Assembly (NCBI GenBank): GCA_000424365.1
Contig: AUJT01000005.1
Span: 1 to 64,000 of the forward strand
Reading direction: 5' to 3'
Source of the DNA: Lachnospiraceae bacterium NK4A144
GTDB lineage: Bacteria > Bacillota > Clostridia > Lachnospirales > Lachnospiraceae
Length of the DNA stretch: 64,000 nt
Shown here piece by piece: positions 44,165 to 52,563 of this stretch. Made by a program: the position numbers and the translations under genes. How positions within the stretch are numbered: the first letter of the stretch is position 1; each line of letters opens with the position of its first letter. The notes below the pieces were generated by a model. It ran no database searches. It worked only from the letters and a program-made list of their open reading frames with translations, and was not told the origin of the DNA.

Positions 44165-44641
44165 ATGGATGACAAAACCTTCGAGGCATTGATTGCCCAT
44201 AATCGCTTTATGTCGTTTTCAGAGACGGAGCTCGTGATCGACGGCATTCGTATTTGTAAGATACGTACACGTCTTTACCGGGAATTTCGAGAGTTTTTCG
44301 GTCATTCTCCGGAGTCTGAAGTTAAAAAACATATTTTATCATTTTGCCCTAACCGGCGCAAGACCCTTGTGCTGGGCTTAGCAATAATGCGGCTTATTCT
44401 CCCATGCACCATTGACGAAGATATTACGGATTACCTGACAGCCATGGTGAACGTGCGTTATCAGGAGACCTACGAAACCTATTCACGCGAAACCGGTAAA
44501 GTTGATGATTATTTTGAGCGCTTCATGCAAAAACATGATGAACTATTCAACAATATATCCGTCAAAGCTGCCCTAAATATCAGAAAACACATATATCGGG
44601 AGCTTGCCGGTGATGAACCACCGTACTTTACGCTAAAATAA
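44165..44641 (+). CDS. Protein of unknown function at the head of the lasso-like cluster (158 aa)
   Basis: The 158-residue soluble protein is mostly helical and rich in Arg and Tyr (KIRTRLYREFREFFGHSPESEVKKHIL; VRYQETYETYSRETGKVDDYF). GGAGG lies eight bases before the ATG. I recognise no family: it lacks the RRE fold pattern of lasso B1 and the Cys-His-Asp pattern of B2. It stands about 140 bp before the precursor gene on the same strand, with a palindrome upstream of its own promoter. A regulator of the cluster is one possibility, based only on position. Confidence 0.65.
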   Translation: MDDKTFEALIAHNRFMSFSETELVIDGIRICKIRTRLYREFREFFGHSPESEVKKHILSFCPNRRKTLVLGLAIMRLILPCTIDEDITDYLTAMVNVRYQETYETYSRETGKVDDYFERFMQKHDELFNNISVKAALNIRKHIYRELAGDEPPYFTLK

Positions 44642-44784
44642 CCTGGATAAAATACTAATTGTTACATTTTTGTAAGGTTTTTTTTCAACAATCTATTGTA
44701 TAATAACATCCTAGTCGAAAGACTTAAAAAAATATTAAGAAAGACGTCATAATATCATAAGTTATTTTGACGCAGGAGATGCTA

Positions 44785-45006
44785 ATGAAGAAACAGTGGG
44801 TAACACCCGAGTTAATGGAACTCAACATTAATGAAACAGCTTACGGAATTTTGGGTTGGTATGAAGATGGCGGTACTTGGGGAGATGGTATAATTTCCGG
44901 TCATCACACTTGGTGTCGTCCTAACCCTAGCCCTTGCAAGCCGGATAAGCCGTCTGATAATCCGTCCGATAATCCGACTAATCCGACAGAACCGTTTAGC
45001 TGCTGA
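44785..45006 (+). CDS. Lasso-peptide-like precursor (paeninodin-type leader, long Pro/Cys tail)
   Basis: The 73-residue peptide starts KKQWVTPELMELNINETAYG, which fits the paeninodin-type leader pattern KKxWxxPxLxxLxxxxT. Thr18 would be the conserved penultimate leader residue. The core would then begin at Tyr20 (or Gly21), placing Glu27 and Asp28 at ring-closing position 8 or 9 (7 or 8 if Gly21). Unlike known cores of 15-25 residues, the sequence continues for over 40 more: a Trp/His segment with Cys44 and Cys51, a Pro-Ser-Asp-Asn repeat stretch, and terminal Cys73. The ribosome site AGGAG is six bases before the ATG. The next two genes encode a kinase-like and a cyclase-like protein. Confidence 0.72.
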   Translation: MKKQWVTPELMELNINETAYGILGWYEDGGTWGDGIISGHHTWCRPNPSPCKPDKPSDNPSDNPTNPTEPFSC

Positions 45007-45043
45007 GTTCATGATCTATAAATATTTATTAAGGTTTTTAGAT

Positions 45044-45082
45044 GCCTTTGTATCATTTATATTGATACAAAGGTATTTTTTT
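45044..45082 (+). terminator. Hairpin between precursor and kinase genes
   Basis: CCTTTGTATC (45045-45054) pairs with GATACAAAGG (45064-45073), followed after TA by seven T residues. It is a rho-independent terminator that would give more precursor than enzyme mRNA, a common layout in peptide clusters. Confidence 0.8.
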
Positions 45083-45127
45083 GTATATGATGATAGCAGG
45101 ATCAAAAATACCCCCGAAAGGATACTT

Positions 45128-46018
45128 ATGTTTCAATACAGAATATATGGTCTGAAAATAGATTCTGACATCCCATTCAGACAGCTTATTGAGGACACTT
45201 CCAATAGTGCTCCTGATATCACTTTAAGAAAAGCCGAACCATCTGATGATCTGCTTAATCTTTCTAAAGACTCATTTTTTGATATGGATCCGAAATTCTG
45301 CTGGTTTCATAACCGCACACTATACTGTTGGATCGAGGATGGAAATCGTATTTTCTATTCACCGAAAGATAACGCAAATGAAGAATACATAAAAACCTAT
45401 ATTTTGGGTTACGCTCTGTCGATGCTCTTTTATCAGCGAAATATGCCATGCATTCACTGCAGTGGTCTTAGAAAAGGTGATCACGCTATACTCATATCCG
45501 GAAAGAGCGGTTCAGGCAAATCCACCATGGCTTCTCTTTTTCTTGATAACGGTTATGATCTTATGGCAGATGACATGTTGGTCACCAAAGTCTGTGATAA
45601 TACAGTCTACGGATCCCCTGCTTTTCCTTGGACAAAACTACAGCGTTCTATCGTAGAAAAGCGTTTTCCGGATCTATCCAAACTTATTTATATCGATGAA
45701 GATAAGGATAAGTTTCTGGTTCCCTGGGAAGGTGAATTTCGCACGGACAGCGCTGTCATCGATTCTATGTTTGTTATGATAGTTGCGCCTCCCGATACGG
45801 AGATACGTATCACAGAAGTGACCGGACCAGATAAGATTATGGTGATTCTTGACAACATGTTACCGGGGCGCGAGATAATGCTCCATAAGAATAATCCTAT
45901 CGCAGTATCAATGGCAGCTAAACTAGCAGCTTCTCTAAAGCTGTACGCTGTTTTCCGTCCAAAAGGAAAGGATACATCTGAGACAATATACAAACTTATT
46001 AACCAAACCGTAAAATAA
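45128..46018 (+). CDS. HPr-kinase-like protein of lasso-type cluster
   Basis: The 296-residue protein has a Walker A (ILISGKSGSGKSTMASL, near residue 124) and LMADDMLVTKV, as in HPr kinase/phosphorylase domains, but lacks the HprK N-terminal domain. Such proteins occur in paeninodin-type lasso clusters, where they phosphorylate the C-terminal serine of the precursor. Here the precursor ends Phe-Ser-Cys, so Ser72 is a candidate but not terminal. AAAGG precedes the ATG at 45128; in-frame upstream sequence spans the terminator and is not coding. It is followed by the cyclase gene after 57 bp. Confidence 0.8.
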   Translation: MFQYRIYGLKIDSDIPFRQLIEDTSNSAPDITLRKAEPSDDLLNLSKDSFFDMDPKFCWFHNRTLYCWIEDGNRIFYSPKDNANEEYIKTYILGYALSMLFYQRNMPCIHCSGLRKGDHAILISGKSGSGKSTMASLFLDNGYDLMADDMLVTKVCDNTVYGSPAFPWTKLQRSIVEKRFPDLSKLIYIDEDKDKFLVPWEGEFRTDSAVIDSMFVMIVAPPDTEIRITEVTGPDKIMVILDNMLPGREIMLHKNNPIAVSMAAKLAASLKLYAVFRPKGKDTSETIYKLINQTVK

Positions 46019-46075
46019 CACTTGTAATCACTTGTGATAAGCCAATCACATATCAATGTTTACAGAGGAATAACA

Positions 46076-48016
46076 ATGTCAGCAATTCTTGGATACTTAT
46101 TAACTAAAAACGATGTACCTGGCGCATCTGACTTTCCTGTCCTAATGGAAAAGGCCCTTCAAAGAAACGCGCGGTTGGATTCCATGCAAAGAATAGTCAA
46201 AGACCAAATTTATATAGCTTGTGGTGTTCAAAATATAACCGAAGAATCCACATACGAAAAACTCCCCTTTTATAATAAAGAGAAAGGTCTGTACTTCACT
46301 TTCGACGGAATCCTTGACAACAGAGAAGAACTGATACGAGAACTAGATCTTTCCTGCGAGCCAACTGAGATGATTGCTGACGGAACCATAGCATACAATG
46401 CGTTTCTTAAGTGGGGTAACAGTGCCGCAGAACATTTTATCGGCCTTTTTTGCTTTTCTGTTATTGACGAGCACTCCGGCACTGTCCGCTTATTTTCTGA
46501 TCCTGTAGCTTCACGCTGCCTCTACTACTACAGAAATCCTGCAGGATCTGTATTTTTCTCTACCCTTATTGCTCCAATACGTGCCGTTTGCCCAGAAATC
46601 GGCATTAATGAGACATATATGCAGGATTTTCTGGCAGCGCCGGGCCTTATGCCAAGCATAGTGTCAAACGAAACACCCTATAACGACGTCTATATCATGA
46701 ATCCGGGAACCATGATAACTATTTCAGCCGGTAGAATTGAACGAACAGTATGGTTTGATATGAGCCATTGTGATGAATCTTACGATCTTTCAAACGCAGC
46801 TAAAGTTGGACAGACATTTCGTTCGTTATACGAGCAGTGTGTCAAGGATGCGACCCGTACAAATGGCGAAATCGGCATATCCATGAGCAGTGGTTTCGAT
46901 TCTGCAACAGTCGGTTCTATTGCCGCGGATCATCTCTATAAGCAAGGACATTCTCTTTATTCATACACTTATTGTCCTTTGAAAAAACGCAACCGTGAAG
47001 GAGACTTTGTCTATGACGAAGAAGCCGATGTAAGAAATATCGCATCTATGCATCCGGCGATCAAAGCCACTTTTACAACTAATGATGGAAAAAATTGTCT
47101 GCAAGATCTGGAACACATTATTTCTATACTAGAGATGCCGGTTAAAGCCATCGTGAATTTTCCCAGTCTTTGTGAGATTTACAAAAAAGCCTCGAAAAAA
47201 GGCTGTCGCATAGTCCTCACCGGTCAATGTGGAAATGAAAGTGTTTCTCATGGTTACATTGATGATATTCTGTGTGACCTGTTCCTCAAGAAAAAATACT
47301 TCACGTTCCTTAGATACCTTAACCGCTACAGCAAGACCGTCCGCGAGAGCCGCAAAACAGCCCTTAAGAACTGTTTAAGGATTTTCCACTATACAAAGAA
47401 TGTTCTCTCCGGAAAGATAGGTTTACTGGCCAATTACACGCCTTCTAACAGATTTGTAAAAGATGATTACTTTAAGAATTATCCTCTTCATGAAAGATTT
47501 AGAATCGGAGAAATCCTCTACCTGGATCAAATCCCCACTACGCAGGAGCTTTATAGAAGTTTCCTAAAGAAAAAGGCTGTTTGGACATATATAGGAGCAA
47601 TGGAGACCAAACTGGGACTTTACTACGGCATCTTTCTTCGCGATCCTACGAAAGATGTCCGCATGCTCCGCTTCTGTTATGCTCTTCCATATAAATACTT
47701 TGCATATATGGGAGAACCAAGATGGCTTATCAGGGGTAATTGCAAGGATCTGATTCCGGCAGACCTGATTAATGACTGGATGCGGTACAGCGTGCAGAAT
47801 TATGACTATCTCGACCGCATTGAACGCGACTGGGATGATGTGAAAAAGATCATCTCTTTTATTATGGGCAAGGATTTTTCTTCTATTATCAACCAGACCG
47901 AGGCTGATACTTTTATTAACGGAAAAGAACCTATTTCTGAAAGATATTCCGATCCGGAGATTAAAGATTTCTTATTTGCTCTTTCTGCTGCTCTTTTTAA
48001 GAAGATTAATATGTAA
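46076..48016 (+). CDS. Asparagine-synthetase-like lasso macrolactam synthetase (LasC/McjC-type)
   Basis: The 646-residue protein has an N-terminal glutamine-amidotransferase-like half that starts MSAILGYLL, so it lacks the catalytic Cys2 of true asparagine synthetase. An ATP-pyrophosphatase half follows with GISMSSGFDSATVG (near residue 266) and VLTGQCGNES. Loss of glutaminase Cys with retained ATP loop is typical of lasso C proteins, which adenylate an Asp/Glu side chain to close the ring. The ATG at 46076 follows GAGGAA. Neighbouring precursor and kinase genes support this over a metabolic AsnB. The stop codon lies inside a 52-bp inverted repeat bordering the next segment. Confidence 0.82.
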   Translation: MSAILGYLLTKNDVPGASDFPVLMEKALQRNARLDSMQRIVKDQIYIACGVQNITEESTYEKLPFYNKEKGLYFTFDGILDNREELIRELDLSCEPTEMIADGTIAYNAFLKWGNSAAEHFIGLFCFSVIDEHSGTVRLFSDPVASRCLYYYRNPAGSVFFSTLIAPIRAVCPEIGINETYMQDFLAAPGLMPSIVSNETPYNDVYIMNPGTMITISAGRIERTVWFDMSHCDESYDLSNAAKVGQTFRSLYEQCVKDATRTNGEIGISMSSGFDSATVGSIAADHLYKQGHSLYSYTYCPLKKRNREGDFVYDEEADVRNIASMHPAIKATFTTNDGKNCLQDLEHIISILEMPVKAIVNFPSLCEIYKKASKKGCRIVLTGQCGNESVSHGYIDDILCDLFLKKKYFTFLRYLNRYSKTVRESRKTALKNCLRIFHYTKNVLSGKIGLLANYTPSNRFVKDDYFKNYPLHERFRIGEILYLDQIPTTQELYRSFLKKKAVWTYIGAMETKLGLYYGIFLRDPTKDVRMLRFCYALPYKYFAYMGEPRWLIRGNCKDLIPADLINDWMRYSVQNYDYLDRIERDWDDVKKIISFIMGKDFSSIINQTEADTFINGKEPISERYSDPEIKDFLFALSAALFKKINM

Positions 48017-48060
48017 CTAAGAAAGCGCCCCGCATTAGGCGGGGCGTCATAAGACAGTAA
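48009..48060 (+). repeat. Left 52-bp inverted repeat of the 4.5-kb segment
   Basis: It begins in the cyclase stop codon region and includes a GCCCCGC/GCGGGGC hairpin. The first 25 bases and last 13 bases are identical to the reverse complement of 52511-52563; only the hairpin loop differs. Homology stops sharply on both sides. Confidence 0.85.
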
Positions 48061-48085
48061 ATACTGTTAGAATTAAAAGAATGTG

Positions 48086-48113
48086 AAGGCGTGGCTTTGG
48101 TCACGCCTTTTCA
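48086..48113. terminator. Bidirectional terminator after the left inverted repeat
   Basis: AAGGCGTG (48086-48093) pairs with CACGCCTT (48102-48109), followed by TTTCAC. It lies at the 3' end of the recombinase remnant. Confidence 0.65.
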
Positions 48114-48809
48114 CTTGCTAAGAGTTCATTCAGAGGGATGAATCCTAATCCGTCGTACGGGATATGGTTAAGTTCAGATAAGCGTTTTCTGCTTCGTTCA
48201 AGTGTTTTGCGACTTGCAGTGATTTGCTTTGCACTCTCCGCAGTCAGAGCAGAACACAAGTCCCGAAAACATGCTGGTTCTTCCGGTCCTAGTCTTTCGA
48301 TGCCGCTGTTCACGTATCTTCTGAACCTTTTCAAACACATCATCTTCAATAATGCGTTCATGTGAGTCAGGAAAGACTGCCTGCTTCTCTATTGGGTTAT
48401 CCCTCTGTTTCTTGTCCCAGATGGAGTTTGTATACGTCTTCAAGTTGACGATACAGCCTGTATACTCACGGCGTTCTAAGATAGCAACCACAGAACTACT
48501 ATGCCATCTGAAAGGATCGTCTGGATCTTTTACATATCCGTAAGGGACATTTGTCGTAAGTGGTGCGCCTTTTTCGCCCTTTGCCCGCTGAACAGCTCTG
48601 ATCTTGCGGCTGGTATCTCTGGCATAAAATTCGTTGAACCAGTTTTTGATACCGGCAAAATCGTTGTTGATGCTGTTAGGATCATCGGAATCATAATTGT
48701 CATTGATAGCGATGTATCGGACTCCGTATTTCGGGAATGTCATGCTGGTATAAAGACCTACCAAAGAAGAATTTCTTCCCAATCGGGATAAATCTTTGGT
48801 AAGAGCCAC
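48101..48809 (-). pseudogene. Remnant of a large serine recombinase
   Basis: The longer piece (48198-48809, about 203 codons) begins inside the resolvase domain (KDLSRLGRNSSLVGLYTSMTFPKYGVRYIAIND) and runs through the recombinase domain (NVPYGYVKDPDDPFRWH ... RREYTGCIVNLKTYTNS) to the first half of the zinc ribbon (GLVFCSDCGECKAN). The N-terminal catalytic serine region is missing. A second piece in another frame (48101-48361) carries a coiled-coil fragment (ITASRKTLERSRKRLSELN) from the C-terminal part. Deletion and frameshift leave it inactive. It is probably what remains of the element that brought in the neighbouring genes. Confidence 0.82.
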
Positions 48810-48916
48810 CTCCTTTCCGGCTGAAATCCATCCCTCTACTTATATACGCACGAAAGAGGGTCAAATGTTCCATGTGTTCCAAAAAAATTTAAATTTTTTT
48901 TGAAGATTGAATGTTT

Positions 48917-49723
48917 TTATGATTCTAATGATTTCAGGAAATCAATCAGTCTCGTTGTTACGGTAGGTATTTCTTTTCCAATCCAGTTCTTTTTTGAATC
49001 AGTCAGCCTATCAATATATCTCTTTGATGAGAATGTTCGTGTAATTCTCCTTACCACGGCATCCATATCATTTTCTTTCATGCCGGGATCAGAAATGACA
49101 AATGTATCTAGACATTGTAATAGCTTTTGGGGTTCAACCTTGTCTGCAAGATAGAACATATCAAAAACATCTTTATATCGTGTTGAGTTTAGTCCGAACT
49201 TCAAAAGTGAGCGTAGCTTTTCGGTAAACATCTGCTCTTTTGAGTTGATAAGCAGGGTGGCACTGCCATCATAGCAGGCAATATCGAAGCAATATTCTTC
49301 CTGTTCTATATTAAGATTCTTATGCACACCAAGATCAATCTTACTTTCTATTGAATCGCCGGAATCATCGGAAATAATGACATAAACACGTTTGCCATGA
49401 TAATCCTGTTGCTTTAGTTCCGTTATTTCTCCCGTCTGCTTGATATGAATACCTTCAAGACAATCCAGCTTTTTGATAAACTGACGAATCGAATCGTCAC
49501 CAAGAGAATATCGGATGAAATCGATATCCATATCCTGTGTAGCTCTTCTTGCATCCTTTGATATGCTGCGCATTACTACGCCGCCTTTGATAGTGACGTT
49601 TCTGCTGAGCGTACTTTCAGAAATTGCCTTGAGCACAACATCCTGACATACCTTTGCTTCTGCATTATCATCAACATATCCGTCTGCATTGGCTTGTCGG
49701 ATCATTTCTTTTATCGTTGTCAT
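48917..49723 (-). CDS. abiEii: AbiEii-type nucleotidyltransferase toxin
   Basis: The 268-residue protein has the nucleotidyltransferase core of AbiEii/AbiGii toxins: TIKGGVVMRSISKDARRATQDMDIDF (Gly-Gly and Asp-x-Asp motifs), IKIDLGVHK-like metal/phosphate residues, and a helical C-terminus. AbiEii toxins of this family modify tRNA or other targets and arrest growth during phage infection. The start overlaps the antitoxin stop as TAATG. Complete; it is the second gene of a two-gene unit. Confidence 0.88.
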   Translation of the reverse strand: MTTIKEMIRQANADGYVDDNAEAKVCQDVVLKAISESTLSRNVTIKGGVVMRSISKDARRATQDMDIDFIRYSLGDDSIRQFIKKLDCLEGIHIKQTGEITELKQQDYHGKRVYVIISDDSGDSIESKIDLGVHKNLNIEQEEYCFDIACYDGSATLLINSKEQMFTEKLRSLLKFGLNSTRYKDVFDMFYLADKVEPQKLLQCLDTFVISDPGMKENDMDAVVRRITRTFSSKRYIDRLTDSKKNWIGKEIPTVTTRLIDFLKSLES

Positions 49724-50265
49724 TAAAATACCTCCATTTCAAGAGCGTCAGTGATCATTTTGCTTCGCGGAAAACTCTCCGCATAGTCCTGTATACGCTC
49801 AATATCAAGATCATAGATTAGATTCCTGTAATTTCTGATGATCTCCTTGTAATAGTCAAAAGGGAATTTATTCTTAAACCGGAGCAGTTCTATCAACATT
49901 CTTTCTTTATCGTAAATCCTGATAGTCGCATCTCTTCGTTCTATAGTTGTAACACCGATGTTTAGTAAATCGGAAAGAACGTAATACTGATGGACACGCT
50001 TATCGTTAATGTAAATAGCGTGTTTGTCTGTTGCGATATGGAATTCGTCAGGAATGACATCGGTTAAACCATGATAATAGAATGCGCTGTCCATGGTCAT
50101 TATTCCTTTGGGGTATTTAAAGGCAATAACGGCCAATGTAGAAACATCGGGAACGTCTGAATAAACGCCCCTCTCAATCTGGTACAGGTTGCCTTCTGAT
50201 ATTTGTTTTTTAATCTGATAATCTGATTGCCATTTTTTAAGACAATCCGGATAGGATAATAACAT
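49723..50265 (-). CDS. abiEi: AbiEi-type antitoxin and autorepressor
   Basis: The 180-residue protein has the N-terminal winged helix of AbiEi (DYQIKKQISEGNLYQIERGVYSD) and the C-terminal antitoxin domain (TMDSAFYYHGLTDVIPDEFHIATDK ... ERMLIELLRFKN). AbiEi neutralises AbiEii without direct binding (type IV) and represses its own promoter by binding inverted repeats. Two such repeats lie just upstream. Complete. Confidence 0.88.
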   Translation of the reverse strand: MLLSYPDCLKKWQSDYQIKKQISEGNLYQIERGVYSDVPDVSTLAVIAFKYPKGIMTMDSAFYYHGLTDVIPDEFHIATDKHAIYINDKRVHQYYVLSDLLNIGVTTIERRDATIRIYDKERMLIELLRFKNKFPFDYYKEIIRNYRNLIYDLDIERIQDYAESFPRSKMITDALEMEVF

Positions 50266-50279
50266 AGTAAACCTCTTCG

Positions 50280-50320
50280 AGTAAATATAGACTTTTGTTT
50301 GACTACAGCCTATATTTACT
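50280..50320. promoter_or_regulatory. AbiE operator 1
   Basis: AGTAAATATAG (50280-50290) and its exact complement CTATATTTACT (50310-50320), 15-45 bp before the antitoxin start. The half-site resembles that of operator 2. Confidence 0.7.
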
Positions 50321-50347
50321 GTAATCGCATAACAATATTGGTGATAT

Positions 50348-50398
50348 ATTTAAGCAATTATAGGTTCTTTATGCACGAAAGCCTATAATTACTTAAAT
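50348..50398. promoter_or_regulatory. AbiE operator 2
   Basis: ATTTAAGCAATTATAGG (50348-50364) and CCTATAATTACTTAAAT (50382-50398), a 17-bp inverted repeat with one mismatch. With operator 1 it gives four half-sites containing ATATAG or TTATAG in two pairs about 70 bp apart, the layout seen for AbiEi autorepression. Confidence 0.65.
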
Positions 50399-50615
50399 AA
50401 TTATAAAAAAAGCATCTTCTATTGTAAACAGCAAACTTGCTCCTCATGTTTGGTAAGTGCCTGAGAAATATAACGATTATAATGATGTATAGTCGTTTTA
50501 TTACATTTCATAGCCGTTTTATGCAGAGGGGTTTAATGTAGAAGTGGGCATTACGATAATAGTTATAGAAAAGAATATCTATCAGGATTACTTATATAAA
50601 GTGAGGTAGGTTATT

Positions 50616-51113
50616 ATGCGTATTGGTATGGATGGTGCTAATGGAGTATCAGATCAGGAGAGATATGCAAAGTTACATGAAGCGGATGCTGTAAAGAAGG
50701 CCGAACAGGTTGAAAAGCCGGAGGATTCTGGAAAGGCTGATAAAGGTGGTATGCCTGTCGATGAATATATCCCTTCGGATCCTGTAAAGGGATTATACCG
50801 ACCGGGAAAAGATTCTGATGGGAATCCGAAGATTGATTATATTGATCCTAAAAAGGATGTATCGCCCGAGGCAAAGGCAGATGATAAGGTTTCCAGTGAT
50901 TCCAAGAAGAGCGAATCTACTACGACCGATACCGATAAGGTAGATCGAGAAATAGAAAAGCTCAAGGAAAAGAAAGCACGTTTGGAGCAGGAAATCCGTA
51001 CCGCTGAAGATGATCAGAAGAAGAGATTGGAGCAGGAGCTTCATCAGGTTGAGGCAGAGCTTGCACAGAAGGATAACGACAATTACAGGCGACAAAATGC
51101 GGTAGTTTTTTAA
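50616..51113 (+). CDS. Charged coiled-coil protein of unknown function
   Basis: The 165-residue hydrophilic protein has an N-terminal RIGMDGANGVSDQERYAKLHE, a central segment YIPSDPVKGLYRPGKDSDGNP, a Lys/Ser/Asp-rich linker, and a C-terminal coiled coil (DREIEKLKEKKARLEQEIR ... LEQELHQVEAELAQKDND). There is no signal peptide or membrane helix. GAGGTAGG precedes the start. It is followed after 20 bp by a 330-aa unknown protein, so the pair is probably an operon. Similar paired proteins occur in Lachnospiraceae, but I know no function. Confidence 0.75.
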   Translation: MRIGMDGANGVSDQERYAKLHEADAVKKAEQVEKPEDSGKADKGGMPVDEYIPSDPVKGLYRPGKDSDGNPKIDYIDPKKDVSPEAKADDKVSSDSKKSESTTTDTDKVDREIEKLKEKKARLEQEIRTAEDDQKKRLEQELHQVEAELAQKDNDNYRRQNAVVF

Positions 51114-51133
51114 TATTTTTAGGAGGTGTTGCT

Positions 51134-52126
51134 ATGGACATTGGTAGTTTGGGTGACGTGACGAGTATGTATCAATATGCAAATCAGATCAGAAATAGGC
51201 AAGTAACTTCTTCTGATTTTGCAAAATCATTTCCTTTTTTTGAAAATTCCAGAGCTGCTGGTCTTAAAAATATTAATCAAGATAGTTTTGCAGGTGTATC
51301 TTCCATAGCATTTTCAAGAAATTATATACGGAATGATATTGTTTCATTAGATAAGGACGCAAAAACTGTTAATGCATCAGAATTCAAGGAAGTTCAGAGT
51401 GCAAATTATAAATTAGTGCCTGAGTCAGATGTGGGTGCTCTCCGCATATATGTTGATGGTGAAAGCGCAGGGCTCTTCTTTCCGGAAAACATGACTATTC
51501 AAGAAGATCCAACAACTGGACTTAAGGTGTTGGTAGGAGAGATTCCCAGTGTGAAAGATAGCTGGTATGATACGATACCGGTAACGGATGAACTTGAAAA
51601 GACATTGACAGAAGCTATAGGGGTTGATGTAATTCCGCATAAAAAACTTGAGGGATTTTATATCGGGACACATGAAGGAACAGGAATCCGATATCTCATG
51701 AGACCGGGAGATGAAGGAAGGGGTGGCAAGGTTCTTCTGTGCAATGCTGTTGATGAGGCGAGATATAGAGCATTAGGTGAAGAATATGCGAAAAAATATC
51801 CTAATTTGGTTACTTCTCAGGAGGCAGGACTATTTTATGCAAGCTTAGAAATCCGCGGAATGGCTCACAGAGGGGAAAACGGCATTGTCATGACTCATCC
51901 GGGTAATATTTCCTACAATGATAATGATGATGCAAAAAAGAACTGGTCAGCCAAGATTGATGAAATAACGTGGAATTTGATGCTTGGTTGGTTTGAAAAT
52001 CACAGATTAAATACTGAAGAAATGACAATGTTTAAGTATTGGGATGATTTGTTTAACAAAATCGGTGGCAGTTATGAAAGAATTTGGTCAGATGAAGAAG
52101 AACGGCAGGGGTATCTGTATCAGTGA
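51134..52126 (+). CDS. Protein of unknown function (330 aa), partner of the coiled-coil protein
   Basis: The 330-residue soluble protein opens MDIGSLGDVTSMYQYANQIRN, then a beta-rich middle (ALRIYVDGESAGLFFPENM; VLVGEIPSVKDSWYDTIPV) and a helical C-terminal part (WSAKIDEITWNLMLGWFENHRLNTEEM). No signal peptide, membrane helix, catalytic motif or repeat is visible. AGGAGG lies seven bases before the ATG. It shares an apparent transcript with the coiled-coil gene. The short N-terminus with 'GSxxDVTSxYQYA' resembles export-associated or flagellum-adjacent proteins only loosely; I assign no function. Confidence 0.75.
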   Translation: MDIGSLGDVTSMYQYANQIRNRQVTSSDFAKSFPFFENSRAAGLKNINQDSFAGVSSIAFSRNYIRNDIVSLDKDAKTVNASEFKEVQSANYKLVPESDVGALRIYVDGESAGLFFPENMTIQEDPTTGLKVLVGEIPSVKDSWYDTIPVTDELEKTLTEAIGVDVIPHKKLEGFYIGTHEGTGIRYLMRPGDEGRGGKVLLCNAVDEARYRALGEEYAKKYPNLVTSQEAGLFYASLEIRGMAHRGENGIVMTHPGNISYNDNDDAKKNWSAKIDEITWNLMLGWFENHRLNTEEMTMFKYWDDLFNKIGGSYERIWSDEEERQGYLYQ

Positions 52127-52342
52127 TTCCATAATAATTATGCTGATATATGTTGAGACTTGAATTTTGAATAATGATGACGGATACGGGATAGATATAT
52201 AAATGGAGGATAATAATATTCTTTTTTACATATGTGTTTCTTTGGAAAGTAATTGGGATTTGTCGGACTAACCAACAGTAATACTGTATTGTAATAAAAC
52301 GGATGAAAAAGATGGCAGGAACAATTATATCAGGGGTGATTT

Positions 52343-52456
52343 ATGAATATAGATAGGGAGTTTGATATTCCGTTTTCCCAAGTGTCAGCGATATATGATA
52401 AAAACCTCATATGTAGATATAAAAATAAACGACGCCATATAAAAAATGCTCCTTAA
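52343..52456 (+). CDS. Short ORF (37 aa), possibly the start of a truncated paralogue
   Basis: MNIDREFDIPFSQVSAIYDKN followed by a basic tail, with CAGGGGTGATTT before the ATG. The N-terminus has the same style as the 330-aa protein upstream (short polar start, then Ser-x-x-x-x-Tyr), so it may be a truncated relative. The stop codon lies in the left arm of the terminator. Confidence 0.3.
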   Translation: MNIDREFDIPFSQVSAIYDKNLICRYKNKRRHIKNAP

Positions 52457-52477
52457 CAAATTGTAAGGAGCATTTTT
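52442..52477. terminator. Bidirectional terminator before the right inverted repeat
   Basis: AAAAATGCTCCTTA (52442-52455) pairs with TAAGGAGCATTTTT (52464-52477), with A/T runs on both sides. Confidence 0.85.
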
Positions 52478-52510
52478 GTGCCAATCCGCCCACGATAGTG
52501 CTCATTTTGT

Positions 52511-52563
52511 GTTACTGTCTTATGAACACTGCCCCTTCGCGGGGCGCTTTCTTAGTTACATAT
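52511..52563 (-). repeat. Right inverted repeat of the 4.5-kb segment, adjoining the tRNA operon
   Basis: Reverse complement of 48009-48060 apart from the hairpin loop. It ends 2 bases before the tRNA-His 3' end and would form the tRNA operon's 3' hairpin (GCCCC-GCGAA-GGGGC), although no T-run follows. Confidence 0.85.

Follow-up and report, generated by a model that had tools for sequence, protein, structure and literature searches.

A precursor gene (A), a kinase gene (K) and a lasso-type cyclase gene (C) lie side by side in the 64,000-nucleotide stretch of DNA analysed here (the window), which is part of contig C5 of Lachnospiraceae bacterium NK4A144 (4.09 Mb, 68 contigs; closest relatives, Lachnospiraceae). 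Paeninodin-type lasso peptide clusters run in the order PadeA-K-C-B1-B2-D, in which B1 binds the leader, B2 is the leader protease and D is the exporter. The window holds A-K-C alone and not the full cluster: scanning its open reading frames (ORFs) of at least 45 residues with home-made profiles for B1, B2, K, C and D (E up to 1e-4) returned K and C alone, A being recognised by its motif, in agreement with a preliminary description of this DNA that found neither B1, B2 nor an exporter here. We propose that the block is a satellite lasso module, for which leader removal and export are probably supplied in trans by a hub locus on contig C2, and whose product is probably phosphorylated C-terminally by the module's own kinase.

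Genes of the A-K-C block

At the level of sequence, the A-K-C block is real and intact (Table 1); the order, common strand and sizes given in the preliminary description (73 residues for the precursor, 646 for the asparagine-synthetase-like protein) all hold. Its closest counterparts are in strain KH1P17 (genome G030, locus L027) and in genome G047, which is 75% complete. The dN/dS (nonsynonymous to synonymous substitution) ratios (NG86, three pairwise comparisons each) are 0.105–0.140 for C, 0.085–0.124 for K and 0.23–0.28 for A, with dS at about 0.5–1.4, so that saturation is a concern; judged by these ratios, the cyclase and the kinase are evolving under purifying selection.

For C, the lasso cyclase model NF033535 ranks first in NCBIfam (176 bits; cut-off 525), ahead of asparagine synthase (95.6 bits; cut-off 267); the second cyclase of the genome, in the C2 hub, is also below the NF033535 cut-off (206.9 bits). 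In a 23-row cyclase alignment, residue 2 is Ser in 20 rows and Ala in two, and Cys occurs only in the AsnB-like protein of NK4A144. The absence of Cys2, which the preliminary description had singled out, is thus correct for C, which has Ser2, but is no peculiarity: 22 of the 23 rows lack Cys2, and its absence is therefore ordinary for such cyclases. Additionally, 21 of the 23 rows have GN where the AsnB-like protein has AD and G284 C19 has GGDE. In the tree, C groups with other lasso-type cyclases and the AsnB-like protein falls far outside. Profile ranking, residue 2 and tree placement together reject a metabolic AsnB identity for C. Its AlphaFold model (pLDDT, the predicted local distance difference test, 91) matches TsnB9 and asparagine synthetases. 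G284 C19 itself (L135:13242-15260), which is AsnB-like, may represent another type of ribosomally synthesized and post-translationally modified peptide (RiPP). It adjoins a WxxP precursor, and its contig also encodes an HprK-like kinase.

The model of K (pLDDT 94) matches HPr kinase and phosphoenolpyruvate carboxykinase, as the HPr-kinase-like label of the preliminary description had suggested. H110, K131, D148 and D149 are invariant in all 22 kinases aligned and agree with the His-Lys-Asp-Asp motif known from lasso tailoring kinases (PMC9266682; this and the other papers cited by PMC number are drawn on in excerpt). Position 45128 is a likelier kinase start than 45011, because a conserved hairpin fills 45040–45079 and the KH1P17 copy begins with the same MFQY; this A-K hairpin with its T run is common to the window, KH1P17 and G047 copies (z −7.0, −6.9 and −5.5). 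Elsewhere, other WxxP precursors that end in Ser (L132:14239-14397, L135:15312-15530 and L157:11026-11310) share stretches with kinases 35–38% identical to K.

The leader of A, MKKQWVTPELMELNINETA, matches the paeninodin family NF033524 (E 5e-4), which bears out the earlier reading of a paeninodin-like leader, though at 19.7 bits it is under the 27-bit cut-off, as is the hub precursor at 19.2 bits. Across seven satellite precursors the invariant columns include W5, L13, T18, A19, D28, G29, G30, G33, D34, G39 and S72, so that the leader Thr (T18) and the acceptor Asp (D28) are unchanged in 7/7. An extended core with a consensus of about xWxGxYxDGGYIGDGxISGH is found in the precursors of seven of the eight members of the cyclase clade described below. 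Ser is the C-terminal residue in six of the seven satellite precursors and the penultimate one in the window copy. There the last codon encodes Cys (FSC, 44995–45006), apparently through duplication of 3 bp at the stop, and the KH1P17 and G047 copies end in Ser.

B1, B2 and exporter genes on contig C2

The preliminary description had proposed, among other options, that maturation uses B proteins encoded elsewhere, and had suggested a genome-wide search for them. In NK4A144, one PF13471 (B2) match exceeds the cut-off (C2:56500-56739, E 1.3e-16), and a second, at 12.6 bits and with stops, is below it; the C2 protein also passes the NCBIfam lasso-B2 cut-off (65.3 versus 33 bits). Two PqqD matches, the type expected of B1, exceed their cut-off. 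The best model of the stronger is the lasso PqqD NF033536 (64.5 bits; cut-off 80), and the weaker (C2:112874) fits no lasso PqqD model. By these counts the genome has one lasso-type B1 and one B2, both on contig C2, which supports the option of remote B proteins. A second A/K/C set adjoins the hub B1: a kinase, a WxxP precursor and a cyclase that is 28% identical to C of the window. The 30–60-kb stretch of C2 also contains an NTP_transf_5 gene and an MsbA-like (D-like) ATP-binding cassette (ABC) exporter. This hub recurs in KH1P17, with identities to that of NK4A144 of 96% for B2, 84% for B1, 77% for the kinase and 60% for the cyclase. Of the module carriers in the genus, the two that are well assembled both retain B1 and B2; B2 occurs in 5 of the 22 high-quality genomes, these two included (chance 0.043).

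Among PDB sequences, the B1 of NK4A144 has a better match in the WxxP-binding PbaB1 (9x90, E 8e-8) than in LppB (9x8z, E 0.01); as we read the alignments, it has neither the Asn nor the Asp with which LppB holds Tyr. PbaB1, a RiPP recognition element (RRE) of paeninodin type, binds its own WxxP leader tightly and a wild-type YxxP leader of a linear polyphosphorylated peptide (LPP) weakly, at about 1.5 mM, and it still binds its own leader with a W-to-Y change at about 40 uM (PMC13381572). B2 has no PDB sequence relative at E up to 1.

Surroundings of related cyclases

Used as a query, the cyclase gave a match in 13 of 396 genomes of the family and in 15 of 392 genomes of the order, the order-level loci being assessed on stretches of 14–19.5 kb. 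In a tree of 32 cyclases, C of the window falls in a clade of eight (100/99 support; window, G030, G047, G144, G721, G216, G284 and G511) that covers six genera among the genomes sampled. The gene surroundings of these eight make up a series. The window, G030 and G047 have A-K-C alone, with B1 and B2 not adjacent. In G144, an 18.4-kb contig holds, of lasso genes, C and A only, together with a regulator pair and an NTP-transferase-like ORF; a different contig carries B1, two B2 and D. G216 has two C/A sets on different contigs: the clade member keeps the one B2, the sole lasso-like B1 is on another contig, and the second C/A set lies with D on a third. G511 has D and B2 8–10 kb and B1 26 kb from C on one contig. 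In G721 (L153:2874-12824), one B2-B1-D set adjoins two A/C pairs and two kinases, one pair belonging to this clade with the same core motif and the other being of the common type; a further PF13471 match lies 24 kb off (27.4 bits, barely over the cut-off of 26). In G511 and G721, B1 was located on the locus stretches rather than by a genome-wide B1 search.

Neither B1 nor B2 lies within 9 kb of C in 6/8 clade members versus 2/25 other lasso cyclases (Fisher p 0.0006, a value that overstates independence since three of the eight are close orthologues). Taken separately, B1 is within 9 kb in 1/8 versus 17/25 (p 0.012) and B2 in 2/8 versus 19/25 (p 0.015). An earlier count on six satellites, with B1 within 15 kb in 0/6 versus 12/15, was weakened once G511 and G721 were added. 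Presence marks were scored by hand. From the B1 list, 13 of 34 PqqD rows were dropped as not lasso-like (by score, frame length or place) despite passing the Pfam cut-off; none is on a satellite's contig, and one of them (C2:112874 of NK4A144) was compared with the lasso PqqD models. From the B2 list, 3 of 20 rows were dropped as below the cut-off, and the B2 set retained 16 of 17, losing G430. Neither group includes G284 C19 or G039, in which C, B1 and B2 each lie on a small contig of their own; G631, whose cyclase is divided between two ORFs, and G653 were assigned to the other lasso cyclases, though outside the tree. The G216 C25 cyclase is in the 32-cyclase tree and not in the first tree.

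More broadly, a hub-and-satellite organisation, in which one RRE/protease/exporter hub matures several separately placed precursor-cyclase(-kinase) modules per genome, has in our judgement about even chances of being correct. Such a system would be combinatorial, each cyclase being dedicated to its own core and the B proteins being common.

Proposed maturation and alternatives

From the sequences we infer the following route. A would be translated from the module, and K would phosphorylate the Ser at or adjacent to its C-terminus; the single lasso-type B1 on C2 would bind WxxP of the leader, and the single B2 would cut the leader off just after Thr18-Ala19. The module's own C would form the isopeptide bond from the new N-terminus to Asp28, closing a ring of eight or nine residues, and the product would leave the cell through the ABC exporter encoded at the C2 locus. 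The Thr of lasso leaders is usually at position −2. With T at −2 the predicted ring would be Y20-D28 (nine residues), and with T at −3 it would be G21-D28 (eight residues). Lasso precursors of rumen Lachnospiraceae have T at −3, Gly at +1 and D at 8–9 (PMC7533575), and in paeninodin the kinase acts on the C-terminal Ser of the precursor ahead of B2 and C (PMC9266682).

Several observations weigh against this dependence on a hub. G284, which is 93% complete, is a counter-example: its clade member lies in a lone K-C-A block, a search at E 0.001 gives no B2, and the one B1 of the genome adjoins a YxxP precursor. Neither B1 nor B2 appears in G047, although that genome is only 75% complete. G511 and G721, the clade members found later, have B2 within about 10 kb of C. 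Furthermore, WxxP is usual among paeninodin-like leaders, so that a fit to the B1 of NK4A144 is expected rather than specific, and by our reading of the alignment this B1 has Lys at the position of PbaB1 Gly42. The YxxP precursor of G284 (G284 C192, L134:11649-11885) lies directly 5' of a B1 that, as we read the alignment, has Asn at the LppB-like position, which fits the Tyr/Asn pairing described for LPP.

G284 and G047, with a module and no matching B genes, would suit a self-sufficient module, in which the leader is cleaved off by a host protease or the cyclase needs neither B1 nor B2 to act on the core; there is a parallel in pseudomycoidin, which, as the title of the paper on it states, forms in vivo without leader and leader peptidase. 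We nevertheless consider self-sufficiency unlikely, given that the leader of A in the window is 95% identical to that of each of its two close copies and the core only 63% and 56%, a difference that argues for ongoing leader recognition, and given the retention of B1 and B2 in the well-assembled carriers. About equally improbable, in our view, is a product that is not a threaded lasso and is instead an unthreaded macrolactam or a linear phosphopeptide. The core is long (53–54 residues) with a tail rich in Pro and Asn, and LPP with HprK kinases often co-occur with lasso clusters; however, LPP systems are described as having no cyclase and YxxP leaders (both from PMC13381572), whereas the present module has a conserved cyclase, and all seven satellite precursors keep the acceptor Asp. 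Taken together, we favour maturation of the A product as a lasso peptide through the C2 hub.

The element downstream of C

The preliminary description also raised the option that a bounded 4.5-kb accessory segment directly after C had truncated the cluster. The segment is indeed bounded by inverted repeats (14 bp, perfect, at 48047–48060 and 52512–52525) and contains a truncated recombinase; it starts, however, at about 48047, after the start of C's terminator, rather than directly at C. It sits between two 25-nt complementary arms, the left of which comprises the last part of C and the beginning of that gene's terminator, and was apparently inserted at a terminator hairpin. The synteny comparison that the preliminary description suggested is provided by G047, which has the same module and left flank (protein identities of 98% for xthA, 99% for trkA and 96% for a 158-residue ORF). 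There the same three genes are followed by the cluster terminator, which leads directly into a tRNA-His cluster; window positions 48047–52535 are absent and the insertion place is one continuous hairpin. In KH1P17 the three genes occupy an unrelated site, and DNA homology is confined to window positions 44652–47998 (76%).

In favour of a remnant of a full A-K-C-B1-B2-D cluster, cut off by the 48–52.5-kb segment, are the segment's position directly 3' of C and its mobile-element features. Against this stand the same cluster end and continuous hairpin of G047, which lacks the segment, the KH1P17 copy at another site and the purifying selection on K and C. Truncation by this segment is refuted by the comparison of these loci, and we give the remnant reading a very slight probability. 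Neighbouring B genes may have been lost earlier, because G216, G511 and G721 have B2 nearby.

Features and neighbouring genes

Besides the truncated serine recombinase, the element contains an AbiEii-like gene with a 180-residue partner, as well as two ORFs for which no Pfam family exceeds its cut-off. The preliminary description had started the locus at 44165, which is the start of the separate 158-residue ORF (44165–44641) that also lies next to the module in G047; homology to KH1P17 begins at 44652. As a member of the module this ORF, of no assigned family, was rejected: its best Pfam match has E 0.51, it has no NCBIfam match, and it was not found beside the KH1P17 copy.

Table 1. Coordinates of the A-K-C module and adjoining features in the window.
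Feature	Position	Strand	Evidence
Upstream region of the module; left edge of homology to the KH1P17 copy	44652..44784	+	blastn of window versus L027
A, 73-residue precursor; leader W5xxP8 and T18-A19; core D28-G-G, Ser near terminus, end FSC	44785..45006	+	NF033524 E 5e-4, below cut-off; 7-locus alignment
Hairpin then T run between A and K, likely terminator/attenuator	45040..45079	+	−20.1 kcal/mol, z −7.0
K, 296-residue HprK/PEPCK-fold kinase, His110-Lys131-Asp148-Asp149	45128..46018	+	Residues invariant in 22/22 rows; fold matches of model
C, 646-residue lasso-cyclase-type asparagine-synthetase homologue; PP-loop SSGFDS, GQCGN motif, Ser2	46076..48016	+	Profiles, tree, alignment, model
3' end of C plus the first arm of the terminator hairpin	48009..48033	+	Perfect 25-nt complement now at 52539–52563; continuous hairpin there in G047
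Inserted element with 14-bp perfect terminal inverted repeats, outside the module	48047..52525		Truncated serine recombinase, AbiEii-like gene

Implications and comparison with known systems

If maturation through the C2 hub is correct, genome mining that requires A, B and C together would overlook one class of lasso peptides, and the products of some 'incomplete' clusters would become predictable. The two precursors per cell would also be a natural test of the permissiveness of one paeninodin-type RRE/protease pair, the converse of the reported discrimination between LPP and lasso leaders. Judged from titles and the openings of abstracts, our full-text literature searches turned up neither the shared-hub arrangement nor any account of lasso modules drawing on common B genes at a distance. 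Published work already describes 'incomplete' lasso clusters from rumen Lachnospiraceae. Sabino et al. 2020 (PMC7533575) report such clusters in the same family and, in one case, in the same strain, KH1P17: in the excerpts, Table 1 gives lasB and lasC and no lasA or lasD for it, and Table 3 gives only the hub-type precursor (GPQDNHTEDG...) and not that of the satellite module. A paper on Hungate1000 bacteriocins (PMC13289728) does not mention KH1P17 in the main text as excerpted.

Taken together, the enzymes appear ordinary and their arrangement unusual, with good comparative support among the genomes compared. Like paeninodin clusters, the module has a WxxP leader, an HprK-like kinase with His-Lys-Asp-Asp, a lasso-type cyclase and a Ser at or near the precursor C-terminus; unlike them, it is without an adjacent B1, B2, D or nucleotidyltransferase, and the window precursor ends in Ser-Cys and has a core of 53–54 residues with a DGGxxGDGxISGH block. 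With the LPP systems of PMC13381572, as excerpted, the module and hub share an HprK-like kinase, a discrete RRE and the co-occurrence with lasso clusters, whereas those systems have YxxP leaders, a signal-peptidase-like protease and no cyclase, and the module has a WxxP leader and a cyclase. A RiPP leader protease encoded off-cluster is also described, again in excerpt, for unclustered lanthipeptide proteases (PMC8960859), which concern another RiPP class and another protease; in the module described here, the RRE as well as the protease would be remote.

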